A DNA stretch of 62,150 bases from Alphaproteobacteria bacterium (GTDB taxonomy: Bacteria; Pseudomonadota; Alphaproteobacteria; Caulobacterales; Aquidulcibacteraceae), in assembly GCA_027488965.1 (NCBI GenBank), contig JAIYAO010000075.1:1-62150 (forward strand). Reading direction: 5' to 3'. Shown piece by piece: positions 7,327 through 56,995 of the stretch. Position 1 is the stretch's first letter; each line of letters starts with the position of its first letter. Position numbers and translations under genes: made by a program. The notes beneath the pieces were generated by a model that saw only the letters and a program-made list of their open reading frames with translations, was not told the origin of the DNA and ran no database searches.

Positions 7327-8052
7327 TCAGTGCGAACCTTCGCGCATGGCGACCGCGGGAAGCAGCGCCAACAACGCTGAATCAAGCGGTTCGGCAGCGA
7401 CCGCAACCCTGCGCCATGTTAACCCGCAGGCCGCCTGCGCCACCGCCGCACTCAGACAAAGAGCATCGATTCGGGCCAGCGGATCGTGGTGTTTCGCCAG
7501 CTTCACGAACGCCGCCGCCCCCCGCGCGCTGTGGAACAGGACGGCTTCCAGCGTCGGCGGCCCGGCGGCGAGCGCCGCCTCCACCGCTGCAGGAAAGCCT
7601 TCGGCCTCAAGGGCGCGATAGAAAGTGCGCACTGTGACGGAGAAGCCCTCGGCGCCGAGCAGCTGCGCCAGGTCTCCGGCCAGGTCGGCGCCGGCGGCTT
7701 GAAGAAGAGGGCCGGCGTCGGCGCGCGCGGCGGCGCCGATCAGCGCGGCCAGCCGGTGCAGATCGCCGCCGGCTACATGCACCTTGGGGAATCCGGCCGC
7801 CTGCGCCGCCTCGGCCGTGGCCTCCCCGACACACCAGGCGGGCAGGGACCGGACGGGCGACGCCGCCGCGAAGGCGGCCACGCCGTTTGAACTGGTGAAC
7901 ACCAGCCCCTGGAAGCCGGCGACGTCGGTATCCGCCGGCACGGCGTCGATGCGCAGCATGGGCGCCACGAGCGCGTCGTGGCCGAGGGCTTCGAGGCGGG
8001 CGGCGGTGGCGGCCGCGCCGGGCGCGGCGCGGGTGACGAGGACCCGGGCCAT
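7327..8052 (-). CDS. hemD: Uroporphyrinogen-III synthase
   Basis: Cyclises hydroxymethylbilane to uroporphyrinogen III with inversion of ring D, feeding haem, bacteriochlorophyll and cobalamin routes. 241 residues, normal for this poorly conserved family. Recognisable blocks are the N-terminal MARVLVTRAAPGAAATAARL, the LVFTSSNGVAAFA motif, WCVGEATAEAAQAAGF, and the second-domain LFHSARGAAAFVKL with CLSAAVAQAA. The ATG at 8052 is seven bases after the hemC stop and gives the standard N-terminus; the frame extends upstream without similarity. Co-directional with hemC and the mitofilin/HemY pair. Confidence 0.92.
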   Translation of the reverse strand: MARVLVTRAAPGAAATAARLEALGHDALVAPMLRIDAVPADTDVAGFQGLVFTSSNGVAAFAAASPVRSLPAWCVGEATAEAAQAAGFPKVHVAGGDLHRLAALIGAAARADAGPLLQAAGADLAGDLAQLLGAEGFSVTVRTFYRALEAEGFPAAVEAALAAGPPTLEAVLFHSARGAAAFVKLAKHHDPLARIDALCLSAAVAQAACGLTWRRVAVAAEPLDSALLALLPAVAMREGSH

Positions 8053-8059
8053 CGGCCCC

Positions 8060-9010
8060 TCAGGAGTCCCAGATGAGCTGGTCGCCCGCTTCCGCCCGGA
8101 TCGACCGGCCCAGTCTGTCACCGAGCGTTGCGGCGGCGGCGGCGAAGTTGGGCGTCACGGCGATCCGTTCCTCGCGCCGCCACCGGGTCTTGCCGTCCGG
8201 GGTCAGTGTCTCGCCGATGAACGACAGCCCCGCATCGTCCAGGCGCGCGACGGCGGCGATGGGCGTGCGGCAGGAGCCGTCGAGCGCGGCGAGAAAGGCC
8301 CGCTCGGCCGAGATCTCGATCAGCGCGCGCTCGTCTTCGAGGCTCGCCAGCAGGGAGCGGACTTCCGCGTCGTCGCGCCGGGCGGTCACGCACAGGGCGC
8401 CCTGGCCCGCGGCGGGCGGCATGGCGATGGGGTCGATGAGGCTGCGAACGTTCTCGGTCAGCCCAAGGCGCTCCAGGCCCGCCATGGCCAGGAAGGTGGC
8501 GTCGAACACGCCCTCGGCGATACGGGCCAGACGGGTGCCCACGTTGCCGCGCAGCATCTCCACTTTCAGGTCCGGCCGGGCATAGAGCACCTGGGCCTGC
8601 CGGCGCAGGCTCGCCGTGCCGATCACGGCGCCGGCTGGCAGGTCGGCCAGGGCCGCCGCGGACTTGCTGATGAAGGCGTCGCGCGGGTCCACGCGCTCGG
8701 GGATGCAGGCCAGCACGATGCCGTTGGGCAGGCGGGTGGGCAGGTCCTTCAAGGAATGCACCGCCAGGTCGATGTGGTTGGCGAGCAGCGCCTCATCGAG
8801 CTCCTTGGTGAACAGGCCCTTCCCGCCGGACTCGATGAGGCGGCGGTCGGTGACCTTGTCGCCGGTCGTCATGGTGGGGAACAGCGGGACCCGGTGGTCC
8901 TGGTCGGCGGGCTCCACCTTGAGCGCTTCGGCGATGCGCGCCTGAATGCGGCGCGACTGCGTCATCGAAAGCGGCGAGGCGCGGGCGCCGATGCGGATGA
9001 TCCTGGTCAT
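8060..9010 (-). CDS. hemC: Porphobilinogen deaminase (hydroxymethylbilane synthase)
   Basis: Polymerises four porphobilinogens to hydroxymethylbilane in the cytosol. 316 residues, full length. N-terminal IRIGARASPLSMTQ, the arginine-rich substrate block GTASLRRQAQVLYARPDL and EMLRGNVGTRL, the catalytic Asp in HSLKDLPT, and the dipyrromethane-cofactor Cys in LDGSCRTPIAA are all present. First gene of the minus-strand hemC-hemD-mitofilin-HemY operon. The 174 bp upstream contains a terminator belonging to the small gene behind it, so hemC probably has its own promoter between about 9011 and 9124. Confidence 0.96.
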   Translation of the reverse strand: MTRIIRIGARASPLSMTQSRRIQARIAEALKVEPADQDHRVPLFPTMTTGDKVTDRRLIESGGKGLFTKELDEALLANHIDLAVHSLKDLPTRLPNGIVLACIPERVDPRDAFISKSAAALADLPAGAVIGTASLRRQAQVLYARPDLKVEMLRGNVGTRLARIAEGVFDATFLAMAGLERLGLTENVRSLIDPIAMPPAAGQGALCVTARRDDAEVRSLLASLEDERALIEISAERAFLAALDGSCRTPIAAVARLDDAGLSFIGETLTPDGKTRWRREERIAVTPNFAAAAATLGDRLGRSIRAEAGDQLIWDS

Positions 9011-9124
9011 GGAGATCTGGGGGCGGGAAGCTGAAAGGCGTGTGGTTCAGCTATCGGCGGGGGCGCCGGCCAGCGCAAGCCCCGTGCAGCGCTCCGCGCA
9101 TCGCGCCCCAGGTCTGCGGCCAAG

Positions 9125-9160
9125 AAAAAAGGGGCGGACGGCCCGTCGGCCATCCGCCCC
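9125..9160 (-). terminator. Intrinsic terminator after the 38-aa small gene
   Basis: A 13-bp stem with one mismatch (9131-9143 against 9148-9160, loop CGTC) is followed on the minus strand by a run of six T. It would end transcripts of the small gene at 9185-9301 and insulate hemC. Confidence 0.85.
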
Positions 9161-9184
9161 TTCAGGGCCTCAGACAAGGTCATG

Positions 9185-9301
9185 TCAGCCCATCACAACC
9201 GCGGCCATGTTGAGCAGCGGTGCGAAACCGCCGGCGAACAGCACGACCGCCACGATCACCGCCAGGGGGCGGAGAGCGAGAGGCTGGGAGTTGGTACGCA
9301 T
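9185..9301 (-). CDS. Small hydrophobic protein A (38 aa), single membrane segment
   Basis: Not recognised. Minus-strand ORF of 38 residues beginning MRTNSQPLALRPLAV and ending NMAAVVMG. A short polar N-terminus leads into one hydrophobic helix (about residues 12-30, AVIVAVVLFAGGFAPLL). A near-perfect ribosome binding site (AAGGAGG, six bases before the ATG) and a strong intrinsic terminator 25 bp after the stop argue that it is expressed. A small GC hairpin (GCGCTT/AAGCGC, about 9322-9337) sits just before the ribosome binding site. Two similar-sized hydrophobic ORFs follow the same design upstream (9537-9656, 9686-9805). Function unknown; a membrane-embedded regulator or small subunit is possible. 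Confidence 0.7.
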   Translation of the reverse strand: MRTNSQPLALRPLAVIVAVVLFAGGFAPLLNMAAVVMG

Positions 9302-9455
9302 GATGTCCTCCTTTTGTTGCTGCGCTTGCGAAGCGCCCGGACGGCCAATGAATGACGGATCGTCAGGATTCGTGGAAGGGTCGCTGCGTTGAAACAGCCA
9401 TGCGTAGTTTCATGCCTTGCCGACAAGAAACCTTCGCATTGCGGAAAATCGGGCA

Positions 9456-9487
9456 AGAAAAAGGCGCGAAGCAAGCCTCGCGCCTTT
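9456..9487 (-). terminator. Intrinsic terminator after small gene B
   Basis: Perfect 10-bp stem AAAGGCGCGA (9460-9469) with TCGCGCCTTT (9478-9487), 8-base loop; on the minus strand the stem is followed by TTTTTC. It lies about 50 bp after the stop of the ORF at 9537-9656. Confidence 0.85.
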
Positions 9488-9536
9488 CAGTGTACCCGGC
9501 CTGCGGGAGGAGATGCAGCCGGGGCTGGTCCGGAAC

Positions 9537-9656
9537 TCAGCCGACGAGCGTGTCGAAGAGGCTGGCGAGGGGCAGCGCAACGAAGCTCATTGCTGCAATT
9601 GCGAGAAGAATGTTGCCGAACTGGTGGAAGGCGGCGGCGGCGCGACGCGGGGTCAT
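9537..9656 (-). CDS. Small hydrophobic protein B (39 aa), single membrane segment
   Basis: Not recognised. 39 residues with a basic start (MTPRRAAAAFHQFG) and one hydrophobic helix (about residues 15-34, NILLAIAAMSFVALPLASLF). AGGAG lies eight bases before the ATG. The gene ends about 50 bp before an intrinsic terminator, so it and protein C (9686-9805, 29 bp upstream) can form one transcript. Size, topology and a PL-(A/L) motif at the end of the helix recall proteins A and C, but overall identity is low, so common descent is only a suggestion. Confidence 0.68.
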   Translation of the reverse strand: MTPRRAAAAFHQFGNILLAIAAMSFVALPLASLFDTLVG

Positions 9657-9685
9657 GGGAAGGCTCCTGGAGCAAGGCGAGGGGA

Positions 9686-9805
9686 TCAGAGGATGATGCG
9701 CCCGGCGGCGTTCGCCAGCGGCAGGAAGGCGCCGGCCACGACGATCAGGCCGAACAGCAGGCCGCCGACGCGGCCGATGACGTGGGGGGCGAAGGTGCTG
9801 GTCAT
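9686..9805 (-). CDS. Small hydrophobic protein C (39 aa), single membrane segment
   Basis: Not recognised. 39 residues, MTSTFAPHVIGRVGG at the start, then a glycine-spaced hydrophobic helix (about residues 13-31, GGLLFGLIVVAGAFLPLA) and a short polar end NAAGRIIL. GGAG precedes the ATG by eight bases. It is the first gene after a 22-bp palindrome (9871-9892) and lies 98 bp downstream of the TetR gene on the same strand, so it may be part of, or controlled by, that regulator's transcription unit. Gly-rich helices of this type often pack against other membrane proteins; the partner is unknown. Confidence 0.68.
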   Translation of the reverse strand: MTSTFAPHVIGRVGGLLFGLIVVAGAFLPLANAAGRIIL

Positions 9806-9870
9806 GTCGTGTCTCCGGTCTGGCGGCATCGCCATGACCTCCTTATGACACGAACCCGCTCGCTGATCAA

Positions 9871-9892
9871 TGAATAAAATCGATTTGATTCA
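9871..9892. promoter_or_regulatory. 22-bp near-perfect palindrome, candidate operator
   Basis: TGAAT-A-AAATCGATTT-G-ATTCA: ten of eleven base pairs are symmetrical around an AAATCGATTT core. It is AT-rich in a very GC-rich background and sits between the TetR stop and the first small hydrophobic gene. The most likely reading is an operator, possibly for the adjacent TetR protein; a short GATCAATGAA string just before it recurs upstream of tetR. Confidence 0.5.
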
Positions 9893-9903
9893 GAAATTCT
9901 GGA

Positions 9904-10539
9904 TCAACTCACCCTTAAGTGTTCCTTGCCTGTCGCTGCGGCCCCGGCGTCGGGCCGGGCGAAGATGCCGTTGAGGAGCAGGTCGAGTACGCCATTGAGC
10001 TCCCGCTCCAGCTTGGGCAGGGTCAGGCTCGAGAACAGCTGGGGGAAGCTGAACTTGGCGGTGGCCGACTGCAGCATTTCGGCGATGAATTCGTAGTCGC
10101 CCTTGATGAAGACGCCCTTCTCGGCGCCTTCCTGGAGGAGGGCCGCGAGGAACACCCGCTCATGGGCCAGCTGCTCGTTGGAGAAGATCGGGCGCTCCTT
10201 GGTGAGCACTTCGGCCACCTCCAGAATCTTGGCGTTCTCCTCCACCAGGAGGTAATTGTCGCGCATCCGCTGCGTAAAAATCTCCCGGAGCCGCTGATCG
10301 ACGGTCAGGTCCCGGCGGCGCGCGATGGCGGCGCTTTCCAGCTGCTGTTCGGAGTAATGGCGCCGGGCCATCGCCTCGGCGATGTCGATCTTCGCCTCGA
10401 AGAAGCGGTAGATGTTGCCGGGCGACATCCCGCAATCGGCGGCGATCTCGGCCATCGTCGTCTTGCCGTAGCCGTAGTGCTTGATCCGGGTCATCGCGGC
10501 GTGAAGGATGCGCTCGCGGGTTTGTGCCTTTTCATCCAT
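9904..10539 (-). CDS. TetR/AcrR-family transcriptional regulator
   Basis: DNA-binding repressor, 211 residues, normal length. The helix-turn-helix is at about residues 23-50: TTMAEIAADCGMSPGNIYRF followed by FEAKIDIAEAMARRHY. The C-terminal ligand domain has no family-specific signature I recognise. Start: the ATG at 10539 (an in-frame GTG lies one codon upstream). Divergent from gpsA and upstream of three small hydrophobic genes on the same strand. TetR proteins commonly bind palindromes near their own gene; candidates lie at 9871-9892 and 10562-10575. Confidence 0.88.
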   Translation of the reverse strand: MDEKAQTRERILHAAMTRIKHYGYGKTTMAEIAADCGMSPGNIYRFFEAKIDIAEAMARRHYSEQQLESAAIARRRDLTVDQRLREIFTQRMRDNYLLVEENAKILEVAEVLTKERPIFSNEQLAHERVFLAALLQEGAEKGVFIKGDYEFIAEMLQSATAKFSFPQLFSSLTLPKLERELNGVLDLLLNGIFARPDAGAAATGKEHLRVS

Positions 10540-10561
10540 CACCAGACCTTACGCTTTGTGA

Positions 10562-10575
10562 ATTGAACGATCAAT
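10562..10575. promoter_or_regulatory. ATTGA-N4-TCAAT inverted repeat between tetR and gpsA
   Basis: A 5-4-5 inverted repeat lies in the 34-bp divergent gap and touches the proposed gpsA ATG. The size and location suit a TetR-type operator that could control tetR and affect gpsA. The flanking GATCAATGAA is repeated near 9866-9875. Confidence 0.4.
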
Positions 10576-11605
10576 GAAGAGTTCAGCCGAATCAAGCCCT
10601 CCCGGTCGGAGCCTCCAAAGGTTGGGGGTTCTGGGCGCCGGAGCCTGGGGCACCGCTCTCGCGCAGGTGGCCGCCGCCGCCGGCCGGGAGGTGACGCTCT
10701 GGGCGTTCGAGCCTGACGTCGCCGCCGCCATCGAAGCGACGCGGGAGAACGCGGTGTTCCTTCCGGGCTGCCCCCTGCACCCCGGCATCGCGCCCGCCAC
10801 TGACCTTGCGGCCCTTGCAGGGCTCGACGCCATCCTCGCCGTCGTTCCCGCACAGCATTTGCGCCAGACATTGCGGCGGCTCGCCCCGCAACTCGCGCCT
10901 AGCATGCCCGTGGTGCTGTGCGCCAAGGGCGTTGAGCAGGGAACGCTCGCGCTGATGACCGATGTCCTCGCCGCCGAAGCGCCCCTCGCCCGGGCGGCGG
11001 TGCTGTCGGGGCCCGGGTTCGCGCGGGACGTCGCCCGCGGCCTGCCCACCGCCACCACCATCGCCTGCGCGGACCAGGGCCTCGGCCGGGCGCTGGTGGC
11101 CGCTTTGGGGCTGCCGACGTTCCGCCCCTATCTCACGGACGATCTCGTCGGCGCCGAGATCGGCGGGGCGGTGAAGAACGTGATCGCCATCGCCTGCAGC
11201 GTGGCCGAGGGCCGAAAGCTGGGCGACGGGGCGCGGGCGGCGCTGATCACCCGAGGGTTCGCCGAACTCTCCCGGCTCGGGCTCGCCATGGGCGCCCGGC
11301 AGGAGACCCTGAGCGGCCTGTGCGGGCTCGGCGACCTTGTGCTCACCTGCGCCAGCCTGACCTCGCGCAACACCTCGCTGGGCGCGGCGCTCGGCGAGGG
11401 GCGGGCCATAGGCGAGGTGCTCGCGGGGCGCGTGTCCGTCGCCGAGGGTGTGGCCTCAGCCCCCGCGGTGGTCGCGCTGGCCGCGCGGCACGGCGTGGAG
11501 ATGCCGATCTGCACGGCGGTGGACGACCTGCTGGCGGGCCGGCTCGATGTGGACGCCGCCATCGCCGCCCTGCTTTCACGGCCGTTCCGGGCGGAGGGCG
11601 TGTGA
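10574..11605 (+). CDS. gpsA: NAD(P)H-dependent glycerol-3-phosphate dehydrogenase
   Basis: Reduces dihydroxyacetone phosphate to sn-glycerol 3-phosphate for phospholipid synthesis. 343 residues. The Rossmann motif [17 protein letters not shown] is at about residues 18-34. The catalytic Lys lies in [13 protein letters not shown], and the substrate block [18 protein letters not shown] and [12 protein letters not shown] are family hallmarks. The ATG at 10574 has no clear ribosome binding site and gives a slightly long N-terminus; a TTG at about 10621 would start nearer the Rossmann strand, so the start is uncertain. The stop overlaps a Rieske protein gene by four bases (GTGA). Confidence 0.95.
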
Positions 11606-44824: not shown

Positions 44825-45715
44825 CATCGCCCGCACGACGGGCGTACGCAGCCGGTCGAGAGATAAGCTCTCGTGCATGATCGCAGCGGGTTGACCCAGG
44901 AAGCGGCCCTGCAGCGCGGTGCGTGCATAGAAGGGCGTATCTTCAAGCGTTTTCTGCACCACAGGCGCGTGTGCCCCGTCGCGCCATGCGTTGCGGGCAA
45001 GGCCCCAGCCGGTGCGGGGCAGAGCCGATTGTGCCGGCGAGTCCAGGGTGTGGACGCCGCCGTTGCGGTCCACGCGCAGGGACAGGCGGCTGTGCACGCC
45101 GTCGCGGCGCTCCACGTCGTAATTGAGGCCGATGTCCGTCGCCGTGTGGGCGCGCGCCCAGTCCCATGTGCGGAACGCGCGTTCAAGAGGCTCTGCGCCG
45201 CTGTTGGAATCGAGGTAGCCGTCGCCGCTCCAGCGCAGGCTTGGCGCATCGAACGCCACCTCGACGCGCGCCCGCGGGGCTATGGGCCGCCAGACATGGT
45301 CGCCACGCGCCGCCAGGGGAATTCGCGCCTGCGTTTGTGTGACGGGTGAGAGGCGTATCGTCCCGCGCACGCGCGTGGGCAGAGGCGCCGTGACTTCATC
45401 GAGCTGCGCCGTGAGCACGCCGTTCGTCCACGACAGGCTGCTGCGCCCGATGGAGAGACGCGTCGCGTCCCGGTCCAGGCTGCGCCGGCCGCGCTCGGTC
45501 ATCGCCCAGTGGCCGCCGCCGCCATCGAGCCGATAGAGGGCGATGTTCATGGCGCAATGGTCCAGCGGATCGCGCCAGCCGCTCCACGCATAGTAGGGAG
45601 AGAAAACGCTGCCGATGAAGGCGATGAGCGTCAGCCCGTACCGGCCGTCGTCGCTGAAGGCGTCGACGTACCACCAGGCGTAGCCGCCTGGAGGAACGTG
45701 CGCCGCAAAGCCCAG
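44792..45715 (-). CDS. crtC: Hydroxyneurosporene synthase (carotenoid 1,2-hydratase), start unclear
   Basis: Adds water to the psi end group of neurosporene or lycopene, on the route to spheroidene or spirilloxanthin. The domain starts at VPPGGYAWWYVDAFSDDGRY and continues with LIAFIGSVFSPYYAW and DPLDHCAMNIALYRL, ending IMHESLSLDRLR. No ATG, GTG or TTG precedes this N-terminus in frame; the CTG at 45715 (LGFAAHVPPGG) is the best candidate and gives 307 residues, a little over the family's 280-300. It overlaps crtD by 85 bases. A frameshift or an unusual start must be involved if the sequence is right. Confidence 0.88.
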   Translation of the reverse strand: MGFAAHVPPGGYAWWYVDAFSDDGRYGLTLIAFIGSVFSPYYAWSGWRDPLDHCAMNIALYRLDGGGGHWAMTERGRRSLDRDATRLSIGRSSLSWTNGVLTAQLDEVTAPLPTRVRGTIRLSPVTQTQARIPLAARGDHVWRPIAPRARVEVAFDAPSLRWSGDGYLDSNSGAEPLERAFRTWDWARAHTATDIGLNYDVERRDGVHSRLSLRVDRNGGVHTLDSPAQSALPRTGWGLARNAWRDGAHAPVVQKTLEDTPFYARTALQGRFLGQPAAIMHESLSLDRLRTPVVRAMLPFRMPRLVG

Positions 45716-47196
45716 TCCGCCATCAAGGTCCGCGCCGCCGTGCGGCCCGACAGCGCCGCCATCGGCACCCCCGCGCCCGGATGGGCGCCGCCCCCCGCCA
45801 GATACAGTCCCCGAATCGGCGTCCGTGCGCCCGGACGTTGAAACGCCGCCACCCAGCCGTGCGTTGCGCGCCCATAGATCGCCCCGCCCGTCCCCGGGTA
45901 GAGCGCATGGAAGTCCTGCGGCGTCATCGTCGCCGTGCGCGCCTTCTCCAGGCGCACATTCAGGCCGCTGCGCTTGAGGCGGTCGAAAACCCTTGTCTGG
46001 CATGCAGTGCGCTCCTCGGGGGACATGGTGTTGAGATCGCCGTCCGCCGGTGCGTTGACAAGCACGAGCAGGCGTTCGTGCGCGCCGGGCAAGACGCTCT
46101 GCCCGCCGCCACGGTCCTGCGCGCAGACATAGATCGTCGGATCGCCCGCCACGCGTCTGTCCTGCAGGATGTCCCTGAACTCCGCGCGATAGTCTGCGGA
46201 GAAGAACACGTTGTGGCGATCGAGCGGAAAGCCGTCGGTGGGCGCCGAAAGCGACCAAGTCATCGCGGAAAGGGAGCGCGCATGGCGTGCGGGGGCTGCG
46301 GTCGCGCGCCGTGCCGCCGCACCGAAGGCGCCCAGCGCCAGGGCGGATGGATCGGCATTCACCACCACGGCATCGGCGCCGATGCGTTCACCGGTATCGA
46401 GCGCGACGCCCGCAGCGGCCCCCCGATCCGTCTCGATCCGCGCCACGTGCGCGCCGTATCGGACGTGCACGCCTTGCGCCCTCGCCAACGATTCCAGCGC
46501 CTGTGCGAGTCGTCGCATGCCGCCGGTGACAGACCACACGCCGTCCTGCTCCACATGCGCGATCAGCATGAGGGTGGCCGGCGCCTGGAACGGCGAAGAG
46601 CCGCAGTAGGTGGCGTAGCGGCCAAAAAGCTGACGCAGGCGCAGATCGCGAAAGTGCCGGCCGAGTGCATGCCAGAGGGTTTCGAACGGCCGTATGGCCC
46701 AAAGATCATCCAGGCGATGGAGACCGATGCGGCCTGCAAGGCTGATCGGGTTGGGCCTCGTCGCGTCCAGGTAAGGCTCGCGCAGCACGTCGTACATGCG
46801 CCGCGCTTCGGCGGCGAAGGCGAGATAGCCGCGCGCGTCGGCCGCGCCGCTGAAGGCGCCGATGGCGTCGGCGGATCGGTCCGCGGAGGCATGAAGGTCA
46901 AGCTCCGCACCGGCCTGCCAGCCATGCCGTGCAAGAATGTCGAGCGGGGTCAGCGCGAGATGATCGTCCAGCGAAGACCCTGCGGCGGCAAAGATCTCGT
47001 CAAATACCCAGCGCATGGTGAACACGGTAGGGCCGCAGTCCACTGCGGCATCGCCCACCACGGCCTGGCGCACCTTGCCCCCGGGCCCGGCCGCTCGCTC
47101 CAGCAAGGTGACCTCCGCCCCGCCCCGCGCGAGTTCGATGGCCGCCACAAGCCCGCCGATGCCGGCCCCCACGACGGTGACGCGCTGCGCGGGCAT
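45631..47196 (-). CDS. crtD: Methoxyneurosporene dehydrogenase (carotenoid 3,4-desaturase)
   Basis: CrtI-related flavoprotein introducing the 3,4 double bond after CrtC action. 521 residues. FAD motif VTVVGAGIGGLVAAIELARG (about 6-25), VDCGPTVFTMRWVFDEIFAA, TYCGSSPFQAPATLMLIAHV and the C-terminal LYLAGGGAHPGAGVPMAALS. The natural end is probably near LMADWALRR; the frame then runs 20-odd residues (TFLQAATPGG...) inside crtC, so the C-terminus looks extended. The ATG at 47196 was chosen; one at 47235 lies within the operator. Divergent from crtE. Confidence 0.94.
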   Translation of the reverse strand: MPAQRVTVVGAGIGGLVAAIELARGGAEVTLLERAAGPGGKVRQAVVGDAAVDCGPTVFTMRWVFDEIFAAAGSSLDDHLALTPLDILARHGWQAGAELDLHASADRSADAIGAFSGAADARGYLAFAAEARRMYDVLREPYLDATRPNPISLAGRIGLHRLDDLWAIRPFETLWHALGRHFRDLRLRQLFGRYATYCGSSPFQAPATLMLIAHVEQDGVWSVTGGMRRLAQALESLARAQGVHVRYGAHVARIETDRGAAAGVALDTGERIGADAVVVNADPSALALGAFGAAARRATAAPARHARSLSAMTWSLSAPTDGFPLDRHNVFFSADYRAEFRDILQDRRVAGDPTIYVCAQDRGGGQSVLPGAHERLLVLVNAPADGDLNTMSPEERTACQTRVFDRLKRSGLNVRLEKARTATMTPQDFHALYPGTGGAIYGRATHGWVAAFQRPGARTPIRGLYLAGGGAHPGAGVPMAALSGRTAARTLMADWALRRTFLQAATPGGTSTPSATTAGTG

Positions 47197-47211
47197 CTCA
47201 GATCCGACGAA

Positions 47212-47254
47212 TGTCCATTGACTGGACAGTAACATGTGTCCAGTTTGAATGACA
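47212..47254. promoter_or_regulatory. Double CrtJ/PpsR operator between crtD and crtE
   Basis: Palindrome 1: TGTCCATTGACTGGACA (47212-47228, TGT-N11-ACA, perfect 6-5-6). Then 8 bp, then palindrome 2: TGTCCAGTTTGAATGACA (47237-47254, TGT-N12-ACA). The site is 16 bp from the crtD ATG and 22 bp from the crtE ATG, so it can control both directions. Two CrtJ boxes 8 bp apart is the arrangement described for bchC of Rhodobacter capsulatus. Confidence 0.85.
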
Positions 47255-47275
47255 CTTGGTTGTCGGAGACGATGC

Positions 47276-48145
47276 ATGCCTCTCGCAGCGCGGGTCGAAC
47301 AGGCCCTTGAAGCAGCGGTGTCGCTCGCCGCAGCGCCCGGCGCGCCTCCGGGCCTTTCCGCCGCCATCCGGTACGCAGTGTTCCCCGGGGGCGCGCGGGT
47401 GCGTCCGCAGTTGTGCCTTGCCGTAGCGTCCGCTTGCGGCGACGACAATCCGGACCTCGCGGACGCCGCCGCCGCGGCCATTGAGTTTCTTCACTGCGCC
47501 TCTCTCGTGCACGACGATCTGCCGTGTTTCGACAACGCCGACCTGCGGCGCGGGAAGTTGTCCGTGCACGCGAAGTACAACGAGCCGCTGGCGCTGCTTG
47601 CGGGCGACGCCCTGATCGTGATGGCGTTTGAGACGCTGGCCCGCGCCGGCGTCGCGTCGCCGCTGCGCCTTGCGCCGCTGATCGCGACCATCGCGCGTGG
47701 CGTCGGCGCGCCGCACGGCATCGTGGCCGGCCAGGCGTGGGAAAGCGAACCGAACCCGCCCGTGGAGACCTACCACGCCGCCAAGACCGGCGCGCTTTTC
47801 GTGGCCGCATGCATGTCGGGCGCGGTGGCGGCCGGCGCCGATGCCGGCCCATGGCGGGCGCTGGGCGAGCACCTGGGCGCGGCCTACCAGGTGGCGGACG
47901 ATCTGCTGGATGCGGTCTCCTCGGCAGAGGACTGCGGCAAACCCACGGGACGCGATGCGGCGCTCCAGCGTCCGAGCGCAGTGGCCGAACTCGGCATGAA
48001 GGGCGCCCTTGCACGCCTGCAAAGCCATGTGCTCGGCGCAGTGGAGTCGATTCCGCCTTGCGCCGGCGCCAAGTCCCTGCGGGATCTCGTCCGGATGCAG
48101 GCCGTCCGGCTTGCGCCGAAGCAACTGGCCCGCAGCGTCGCCTGA
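47276..48145 (+). CDS. crtE: Geranylgeranyl diphosphate synthase
   Basis: Polyprenyl synthase making the C20 precursor for carotenoids and the bacteriochlorophyll tail. 289 residues. First Asp-rich motif in LVHDDLPCFDNADLRRGKLS, second in YQVADDLLDAVSSAEDCGK; GGARVRPQL and VVAGQAWESE-type blocks are present. The ATG at 47276 has GGAG eight bases upstream; an in-frame ATG at 47249 lies within the operator. Six bases separate it from crtF. Confidence 0.95.
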   Translation: MPLAARVEQALEAAVSLAAAPGAPPGLSAAIRYAVFPGGARVRPQLCLAVASACGDDNPDLADAAAAAIEFLHCASLVHDDLPCFDNADLRRGKLSVHAKYNEPLALLAGDALIVMAFETLARAGVASPLRLAPLIATIARGVGAPHGIVAGQAWESEPNPPVETYHAAKTGALFVAACMSGAVAAGADAGPWRALGEHLGAAYQVADDLLDAVSSAEDCGKPTGRDAALQRPSAVAELGMKGALARLQSHVLGAVESIPPCAGAKSLRDLVRMQAVRLAPKQLARSVA

Positions 48146-55067: not shown

Positions 55068-55892
55068 ATGGCCTTGCTTAGTTTTGAGCGCAAGTACCGG
55101 GTGCGTGGCGGCACCCTGATCGGCGGCGACTTGTTCGACTTCTGGGTCGGGCCATTCTACGTCGGCTTCTTCGGGGTCACGTCGCTCTTCTTTGCGACCC
55201 TCGGAACCGCCATGATACTTTACGGCGCAGCGATCGGCCCGACGTGGAACGTCTGGCTCATCAGCATCGTGCCGCCCGATCTCGCCTATGGCCTGTCAGT
55301 GGCGCCGCTCAAGGAGGGCGGTATCTGGCAGGTGGTCACGATCTGCGCCATCGGCGCTTTCGTCTCCTGGGCGCTCCGCGAGGTGGAAATCGCGCGGAAG
55401 CTGGGGATCGGACTGCACGTCCCGGTCGCGTTCGGCATGGCGATCTTCGCGTACGTGACGCTGGTCGTGTTTCGACCGCTCCTCATGGGCGCCTGGGGTC
55501 ACGGATTCCCGTACGGCATCTTCAGCCACCTCGATTGGGTGTCGAACGTCGGGTATACGTACATCAACTTCCACTACAATCCGGCGCACATGATCGCCGT
55601 GTCGTTCTTCTTCGTGAACGCCTTCGCGCTCGCGTTGCACGGCTCGCTGATCCTTTCGGCGACGAACCCGGGCAAGGGGGAAGTCGTCAAGACGCCGGAG
55701 CACGAAGACACCTTCTTCCGCGATGTCCTCGGCTACTCCGTCGGCACGCTGGGCATCCACCGGGTCGGCCTGTTCCTCGCGCTTTCGGCAGGGTTCTGGA
55801 GCGCGGTGTGCATCATCATCAGCGGACCCGTCTGGTCGCTCGGCTGGCCCGAGTGGTGGGACTGGTGGCTTAATCTTCCGATCTGGGGCTAG
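55068..55892 (+). CDS. pufL: Photosynthetic reaction centre L subunit
   Basis: Core membrane subunit with five helices binding the special pair, accessory pigments, quinone and iron. 274 residues. [20 protein letters not shown] is the standard N-terminus. The His in [20 protein letters not shown] and ALALHG (special pair and iron ligands) and the iron-ligand His in [16 protein letters not shown] are present. It ends [12 protein letters not shown]. PufM begins 17 bp later. Confidence 0.98.
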
Positions 55893-55909
55893 CGCAGGAG
55901 CACACGGCC

Positions 55910-56995
55910 ATGGCTGGCTATCAAAACATCTTTACGCAGGTCCAGGTTCGCGGACCGGTCGAGTTCGGCGTCGCACTTCCCGTGGGCAACATGCCCCGCG
56001 ACGGAAGCGCCCAGTTCTGGCACTTCCTCGGGCGCATCGGCAACGCACAGCTGGGACCCATCTATCTCGGCTGGACGGGTGTGGCGTCCCTCGTCTGCGG
56101 GTTCATCGCGTTCGAGATCATCGGTCTCAACATGCTCGCCTCCGTGGGCTGGGATCCGGTGGAGTTCGTCCGTCGTCTGCCCTGGCTGACGCTCAACCCG
56201 CCGCCGCCGGAGCGCGGCCTCCAGTTCTTCCCGCCGCTGGCGGAAGGCGGCTGGTGGCTGATGGCGGGCTTCTTCCTCACCACGTCCATCATCCTGTGGT
56301 GGGTGCGCACCTACACACGGGCCCGTGCGCTTGGCCTCGGCACCCATGTCGCCTGGGCCTTCGCGTCGGCGATCTGGCTCTACCTCGTGCTCGGCTTCAT
56401 CCGCCCGATCTTCATGGGCAGCTGGAGCGAAGCGGTGCCGTTCGGCATCTTCTCGCACCTTGACTGGACGGGCGCCTTCTCGATCACCTACGGCAACCTC
56501 TTCTACAATCCGTTCCACGCGCTCTCGATCGCGTTCCTCTACGGCTCTGCGTTGCTGTTCGCCATGCACGGGGCGACGATCCTCGCCGTGAGCCGCTACG
56601 GCGGCGAGCGCGAGATCGAACAGATCACCGACCGGGGCACCGCTTCGGAACGCGCGGCGCTTTTCTGGCGCTGGACGATGGGCTTCAACGCGTCGATGGA
56701 ATCCATCCACCGCTGGGCCTGGTGGTTTGCGGTGCTGACCACGCTCACCGGCGGCATCGGCATCCTGCTGACCGGAACGGTTGTCGACGACTGGTACGGC
56801 TGGGCCCAGCAACACGGCTATGCGCCGGTGGAGCAGCCCGTGGTTTCGGCGCCTGCGCCGAACCCAACGGAAGCGCCTGTCGACACCATGGGCGCCGCCC
56901 AGGCGCCCGCAGCACCGGCCGCGGGGGACTCTCCCGTGCCCGTCACCACCCCGACGCCGCTGCCGGACGGCTCCGGCACGACGCCGCCGCAATAG
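55910..56995 (+). CDS. pufM: Photosynthetic reaction centre M subunit with C-terminal extension
   Basis: Partner of PufL, 361 residues against about 300-325 in most species. The core is complete: [59 protein letters not shown] (special-pair and iron His), the iron-ligand Glu in [13 protein letters not shown] and His in [17 protein letters not shown]. After about residue 306 a tail of about 55 residues rich in Pro, Ala and Thr follows ([20 protein letters not shown]). No pufC or pufX follows; dxs does, after 17 bp. The tail may take part in electron-donor docking or LH1 contact. Confidence 0.97.

Follow-up and report, generated by a model that had tools for sequence, protein, structure and literature searches.

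Regulated small membrane proteins are a known kind of gene product, and several described systems can be set beside the locus studied here. AcrZ, a single-pass E. coli protein of 49 aa which binds AcrB, is reported to need the bend at its proline for partner binding, the bent shape and not specific contacts being recognised (PMC7267776). The microproteins of the window (the whole stretch of 62,150 nucleotides analysed) differ from AcrZ in being TetR-associated, multi-paralogue and 30-40 aa long, with no Pfam AcrZ match (E <= 0.1) and no identified RND partner. CydX and KdpF are single-helix proteins of 30-40 aa; unlike them, the window family is unlinked to an enzyme operon, has dispersed paralogues and lacks a Pfam match. 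Membrane-associated type I toxins often occur in several copies per genome. TisB, LdrD, IbsC and AapA1 are hydrophobic, shorter than 60 aa and of one helix (PMC8309996), and the window peptides are built likewise, their helix being predicted. In contrast to these toxins, the family has a putative TetR operator or a CRP-like box at the promoter. Repressors of the FadR/QacR type share their fold and autoregulatory operator arrangement with the window TetR, whereas the only candidate targets found for the latter are tetR, gpsA and the micro-operon. To our knowledge, regulated single-helix microproteins stand alone or have few relatives, and we know of no combination of a dedicated TetR with a many-copy expansion under one promoter type.

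Two of the three small genes at the locus, sA and sC, are members of a hitherto undescribed family of predicted membrane proteins of 30-40 residues, of which no description was found in the open-access literature among the matches listed. We put the probability at about 0.5 that the locus is a regulated module making inner-membrane microproteins, which would act as bent, AcrZ-like modulators of a protein or of the bilayer.

Layout of the locus

The first-pass annotation had described three micro-ORFs on the minus strand beside a TetR gene, each with a ribosome binding site and one membrane helix, and two terminators separating them into two transcripts. All three ORFs are present with this anatomy, each with an ATG start and a GGAG-type ribosome site, with tetR upstream and hemC downstream (Table 1). 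The ORF finder lists sA as a 49-aa frame from an upstream ATG at 9835; the putative 39-aa start is preferred, since length and Shine-Dalgarno sequence are kept in relatives. Both terminators were recovered, that of sC by the terminator scan and that of sA-sB by folding; the latter was overlooked by the scan, yet folds stably. Between sA and sC, 19 of 27 relatives also have a GC stem with a T run, and sC is predicted to be a transcription unit separate from sA-sB.

Table 1. Coordinates of the features at the TetR locus of the window
Feature	Position	Strand	Remarks
sA	9686..9805	minus	39-aa single-helix microprotein; 27/27 relatives; dN/dS 0.45-0.66 by set
sB	9537..9656	minus	39-aa microprotein, follows sA as second gene; 56-63% identical relatives, L003 and L005 only
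sC	9185..9301	minus	38-aa single-helix microprotein, own unit; 27/27 relatives; dN/dS 0.36
TetR-family regulator, 211 aa	9904..10539	minus	Pfam TetR_N 1.5e-11, TetR_C_27 6.8e-9
gpsA	10574..11605	plus	Pfam/NCBIfam; divergent from tetR; adjoins tetR in 28/28 loci
Terminator of sA-sB unit	9459..9488	minus	fold -21.5 kcal/mol, z -4.1
sC terminator	9128..9163	minus	terminator scan and folding
Operator 1 (candidate), TGAACTCTTCATTGATCGTTCA	10564..10585	minus	over putative tetR -35 and gpsA 5' end
Operator 2 (candidate)	9864..9892	minus	22-bp palindrome 9871-9892 and TTGATCA; overlaps putative sA -35
Putative sigma-70-like sA promoter	9842..9870	minus	TTGATC, 17 nt, CATAAG; by eye

Conservation and coding selection

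The scan for TetR relatives gave 28 loci, the 28th of which (L030) ends inside TetR. gpsA lies beside tetR throughout and hemC downstream in 27, and sA and sC follow TetR in all 27 related loci with DNA past TetR, a recurrence which argues that the ORFs are not due to chance. With the window included, sA measures 35-42 aa (38 in 18 of 28) and sC 37-38 aa, and the gap between them is 227-234 nt in 16 of 27 relatives. Under one rule, a Shine-Dalgarno sequence precedes sA in 27/27 and sC in 16/27 relatives, several other sC having only GGGGA. sB was recognised only in the window, L003 and L005.

Conserved synteny with TetR, which the first-pass annotation had proposed to look for, is borne out. 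Loss of the frames in relatives, or a dN/dS near 1, had been named as grounds against the three genes; the frames are conserved and dN/dS is below 1, the true frame being lowest in 5 of 5 sets. Table 1 gives the Nei-Gojobori values of sA and sC, the higher sA value coming from a fuller sA set. For sB the value is 0.48, from 3 sequences, and for the 30-aa paralogues described below 0.23-0.55 (within three genomes). Other sense frames gave 0.85-3.0 over the sets (0.94 and 3.02 for sC), and one antisense frame, which partly mirrors the true codons, 0.45-0.89. By these comparisons sA, sB and sC are conserved coding genes. Their short length alone would speak for spurious ORFs in GC-rich intergenic DNA, a reading refuted by frame-specific conservation (synteny, dN/dS, family copies and CRP-like boxes), and we regard its probability as negligible.

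The spacing between sC and hemC is 1.1-1.4 kb in 24 of 27 relatives, the interval holding a gene which we take to be tsaD; it is below 0.2 kb in the window (9010-9185), L006, L016 and L017.

The TetR regulator and its candidate operators

A TetR relative was found at E <= 1e-15 in 52 of the 60 genomes of the bacterial family. The window protein has the TetR_N HTH and an all-helical C-domain that mark a TetR member, and its AlphaFold model has a pLDDT of 89.5. A Foldseek search with this model gave a best E of 5.7e-7, the first matches being FadR proteins with acyl-CoA (TM-scores 0.66-0.68); higher scores are reached by some QacR and EthR2 entries, and the likeness to FadR is therefore not decisive for the ligand class.

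The 22-bp palindrome noticed earlier between the TetR gene and the micro-ORFs was located at 9871-9892 (TGAATAAAATCGATTTGATTCA; 10 of 11 pairs match), and is likely to be part of a TetR operator on the -35 of the sA(-sB) promoter. Before sA, a TTCATTG core is found in 25 of 27 relatives (absent in L011 and L027), mostly within a TGAAC/T-N-TTTTATTCATTGATCA-like site as read from printed sequences with no motif-tool score. Upstream of tetR the relatives have TGAATCCTTCATTGAACGTTCA-like DNA in common, whose usual distance to the start codon is 24-39 nt (L010, 46-61 nt), and the operator 1 regex matches 28 of 29 sequences, the exception being L024. Read by eye, TTGATC is the -35 candidate at both operators, 17 nt from a -10-like element, and some relatives have a better -10 (TATATA type) at sA; the automatic promoter scan found no promoter for sA. 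Several gpsA start candidates lie within or near operator 1. From this arrangement TetR is probably autoregulated and gpsA perhaps co-regulated via operator 1, while regulation of the microprotein locus by TetR appears highly likely.

The 15-base core TTCATTGAWCRTTCA was searched in ten genomes; exact sites occur only at tetR in nine of them, G015 having one mismatch there, and therefore TetR appears to be a local regulator. Allowing at most one mismatch gave 6 further one-mismatch matches, and zero for the reversed-pattern control. A TetR regulon that reaches a transporter was considered and rejected on the exact sites, which in the ten genomes were found only at tetR. Five of the six one-mismatch sites (L255-L260, in G015, G031, G033 and G052) have the TTGATTGAWCRTTCA form, and these sites may mark another TetR's targets.

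At 13 more distant TetR loci (TetR 33-64% identical), a microprotein with the same tail type lies within 900 nt in 7. Four more have a profile match farther away, at 1.3 kb in G004, 1.4 kb in G022 (E 1.3e-5), 13 kb in G007 and on a different contig from tetR in G017 (E 1.8e-6); no microprotein was found for the remaining two, G019 and G029. The operator regex lies at most 170 nt from the ATG in 11 of 14 distant-genus ORFs, G004 and G007 included, and it is also present in loci L214 (G017) and L215 (G022). Two of the three ORFs that it missed were read: in G020 the site is farther up, and the g10 form has a variant site. An operator of the same type thus precedes the microprotein in distant genera, even where tetR is 13 kb away. 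At L185 (G004), a two-gene insert, presumably resembling HigB/HigA, lies between tetR and the microprotein gene, whose operator is retained.

The sA-sC gap of loci L006-L029 contains recurring blocks before sC, TTTGCATAACTGG-like and then a GATGTTCGCAnnTGCAACATC-like hairpin, which suggests a second regulator, of sC. The window sC leader is no more folded than shuffles (z +0.89).

Family membership and distribution

Profile-profile comparison gave homology probabilities of 96% for sA-sC, 95% for sC and the 30-aa copies, 94% for sA and the 30-aa copies, and 93% for sC and the distant forms. These profiles place sA and sC in one family as paralogues; as a point against, short hydrophobic helices may inflate profile scores through composition. 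Paralogy of sB with sA and sC was rejected (probability 1-2%, from three sB sequences), the proteins being alike in build only. The first-pass reading, made from sequence alone, had missed that sA and sC are paralogous and that their family has many dispersed 30-aa copies in sister genera.

At E <= 0.01 the sC profile (A1) matched 37 of the 60 genomes in the bacterial family, the match in G026 being weak. Matches to the 30-aa profile (A4) at E <= 0.5 were present in 43 of the 60; they number 388 in sum and reach 26 in a single genome. In sister genera these are for the most part 30-residue paralogues, but the counts include TetR-locus members and weak matches, some in long frames. No clear 30-aa copy is present in the window's own genus (G000, a single match, E 0.39; G001, none; G002, two, best E 0.08). 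The 21 matches at E <= 0.001 among 200 genomes of the order all fell within the same bacterial family, and the microprotein family is, as found, restricted to it. Searching 385 genomes of the class with A1 gave, besides the own genome, 8 weak matches (E 5.7e-4 to 0.01), all in open frames of 101-774 aa. With profile A5, 40 of the 385 had a match at E <= 0.05, the strongest being in G082 (5.3e-7); the eight top matches cover only positions 3-26, some with stops. In 299 genomes of the order, 5 A5 matches lay outside the bacterial family, at E 0.004-0.044. At L230-L237 and L241-L243, A5 matches over positions 3-26 in other families lie in frames mostly of 21-66 aa, several with an internal TGA. 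No plasmid-borne copy was found for the one g14 peptide searched.

When the window peptides and all A1, A2, A4 and A5 members were compared with Pfam-A, no match reached a cutoff where checked. The rejected candidates were DUF1375 (E 0.089; 13.5 bits, cutoff 20.3), DUF7333 (best E 0.0086; rescanned members 14.4-16.4 bits, cutoff 27), Gram_pos_anchor (E 0.037; 14.4 bits, cutoff 20), DUF7155 (best E 0.012; one member rescanned, 14.3 bits, cutoff 27) and PsbX (E 0.061; 13.8 bits, cutoff 25; also 0.059 for one sA). In NCBIfam, searched with the window peptides and A4, there was nothing for the window peptides, and VraH_fam (0.057 for one A4 member) was likewise discarded. Against Rfam, positions 8000-11000 matched twice, each time under the gathering score, and no antisense RNA of an antitoxin was seen.

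The window also carries two photosynthetic reaction-centre subunit genes (Photo_RC) at 55068-56821, with DXP synthase adjoining, and an amine-oxidase-type gene at 45631-47481, presumably carotenoid-like; these genes are part of a photosynthesis cluster. The first-pass suggestion of a role in the photosynthetic membrane was not upheld, since 20 of the 50 genomes with the module, and 4 of the 10 others, have reaction-centre genes. Here "with module" means A1 at E <= 1e-5 (36 genomes) or A5 at E <= 1e-10 (14 genomes), of 60; G017 and G022, with weaker A5 matches, were counted as without, absence was read from A1 alone for G019, G027, G028, G037 and G054, and G037 and G019 are 57% and 63% complete. 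G001, of the same genus, with the full trio and 100% complete, has no reaction-centre genes. For the other target suggested at first, an inner-membrane transporter, the analysis gave evidence neither for nor against.

The 30-residue units of sister genera

Of 86 A4 matches in four genomes, 69 were analysed, after exclusion of 6 TetR-locus members, 7 in long frames and 4 that were partial, weak or unfetched; with 7 copies added from G012, G013 and G026, 76 copies in 7 genomes were read. Mean pairwise identity within the four genomes compared is 0.60-0.78. Of 60 solo or first copies, 55 are preceded by a CRP-like box, GTGnC-N4-GnCAC (55 of 59 when only copies with at least 120 nt upstream are counted). 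None of the 16 second copies has the box, and mononucleotide shuffles give about 0.005 per unit. The centre of the box is 71-95 nt from the ATG (median 82). The five solo or first copies without a box are two at L152, two at L172 and one at L170; the last of these begins at the end of a contig, directly after another, partial copy, and so may be a second copy. Class II CRP-dependent promoters have the same box, whose centre is estimated here at about -41.5 from the inferred start site; in contrast to those promoters, the factor is a candidate CRP-type one only, and the box, found at the sister-genus micro-genes, is absent from the window.

Many inferred 30-aa leaders contain a short stem-loop, and leader folding is modestly stronger than in mononucleotide shuffles (24 of 55 with z < -1). 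Neighbours were listed for 48 loci, of which 44 have one or more, and among the loci read by eye, about 15, no partner gene recurs. Single loci have an MFS-like transporter (L151), a sensor-kinase-like gene (L160) and, 2 kb off, an ABC-transporter-like gene (L167). In another reading the peptides are small subunits or assembly factors of one particular respiratory or transport complex, of the CydX/KdpF type. Size, the single helix and vertical inheritance at a fixed locus would fit such a role; the TetR locus has gpsA and hemC as neighbours and no complex gene, up to 26 profile matches occur per genome with neighbours differing where read, and the Pfam match is lacking, and we find this role very improbable.

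At L157 (2762-4872, G025:C55), three direct unit copies, 90-100% identical over 184 nt, flank two inserts which to us look like VapBC and ParDE toxin-antitoxin pairs. At L158 (2466-3928, G025:C19), two copies, 96-97% identical, flank a 260-aa membrane-protein-like ORF.

Peptide anatomy and possible functions

In the window the conserved proline is residue 28 of sC and residue 29 of both sB and sA, 11 residues from the C-terminus. The last proline has the same distance from the end in 28/28 sC, 26/28 sA, 2/3 sB and 32/33 of the 30-aa copies of g3, g9 and g10; in the g14 copies it is 15 from the end (42 of 43). The AlphaFold model of sC (mean pLDDT 82) has helices at 10-25 and 27-37, with a break at residue 26, two before the proline. 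Insertion of the peptides in the membrane is very probable, and the chance that they modulate a protein or lipid partner may be about even.

The tail of the peptides bears on two other functions. The peptides could be exported, with an N-terminal signal peptide cut by SPase I and an active, pheromone- or bacteriocin-like C-terminal tail, for example the terminal ten residues in g14 copies. An SPase-I-like pattern, by a home-made rule and not SignalP, is present in 43/43 g14 and 28/33 other 30-aa copies (g3/g9/g10); the resemblance of the g14 copies to cleavable signal peptides is a poor fit to a stable membrane helix, and thereby also counts against the AcrZ-like reading. The C-terminal ten residues are strongly conserved, and one promoter type serves nearly all solo or first copies, in line with export. 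Against it, the pattern occurs in just 8/28 sA, 6/28 sC and 1/3 sB, several TetR-locus forms have bulky or charged residues at -3, and the roughly 15 loci read by eye share no recurring neighbour gene, so that we consider export rather unlikely. A related possibility, which seems more doubtful still, is that the up to about 20 similar 30-codon units of Terricaulis-like genomes, which have a CRP-type box at a constant distance before nearly all solo or first copies, form a dispersed exported-peptide system, each unit consisting of a short leader, a signal peptide and an exported ten-residue tail; the TetR-locus forms, those of the window included, would then be an older membrane-bound branch and might serve this system in sensing or immunity.

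The peptides could instead depolarise the membrane like type I toxins once released from repression, being kept off by TetR in the window or by the CRP-like site and leader hairpins in sister genera. Their size and single helix, the dispersed multicopy arrangement with tandem pairs, and the stem-loops that many inferred mRNAs have close to their start are compatible with this. However, type I membrane toxins are described as generally having cationic residues at the C-terminal end (PMC8309996), and such an end is absent here, where the last 12 residues have a mean net charge of -0.3 to +0.8 across five sets. There is also no match to a Pfam toxin family, and a toxin function seems unlikely, if only slightly more so than export.

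This brings us back to the AcrZ-like modulators, for which binding by TetR, its repression and the promoter are predictions from the DNA sequence. In such a scheme TetR would repress tetR, sA-sB and perhaps the divergent gpsA until a small ligand binds, possibly an acyl or other lipid-like molecule. The gpsA product makes glycerol 3-phosphate for phospholipids, hence the guess of a lipid link, with which the FadR matches are compatible. Once released, the peptides would insert N-in/C-out, and a bend of the helix near the conserved proline would place the last 11 residues at the periplasmic face, where lateral contacts of the helix with a membrane protein or the bilayer may be the mode of action, comparable to that of AcrZ on AcrB. 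The expanded 30-aa paralogues of sister genera would be switched on by a CRP-type activator, an arrangement suggestive of dose-dependent peptides made under specific conditions.

Significance

The family joins a dedicated TetR with candidate operators and inheritance at one locus to a stand-alone expansion with one promoter type, and its many natural variants provide material for structure-function work. Deletion of tetR would offer a ready switch, and the family lends itself to a clear test of whether these peptides are membrane modulators, toxins or exported peptides.
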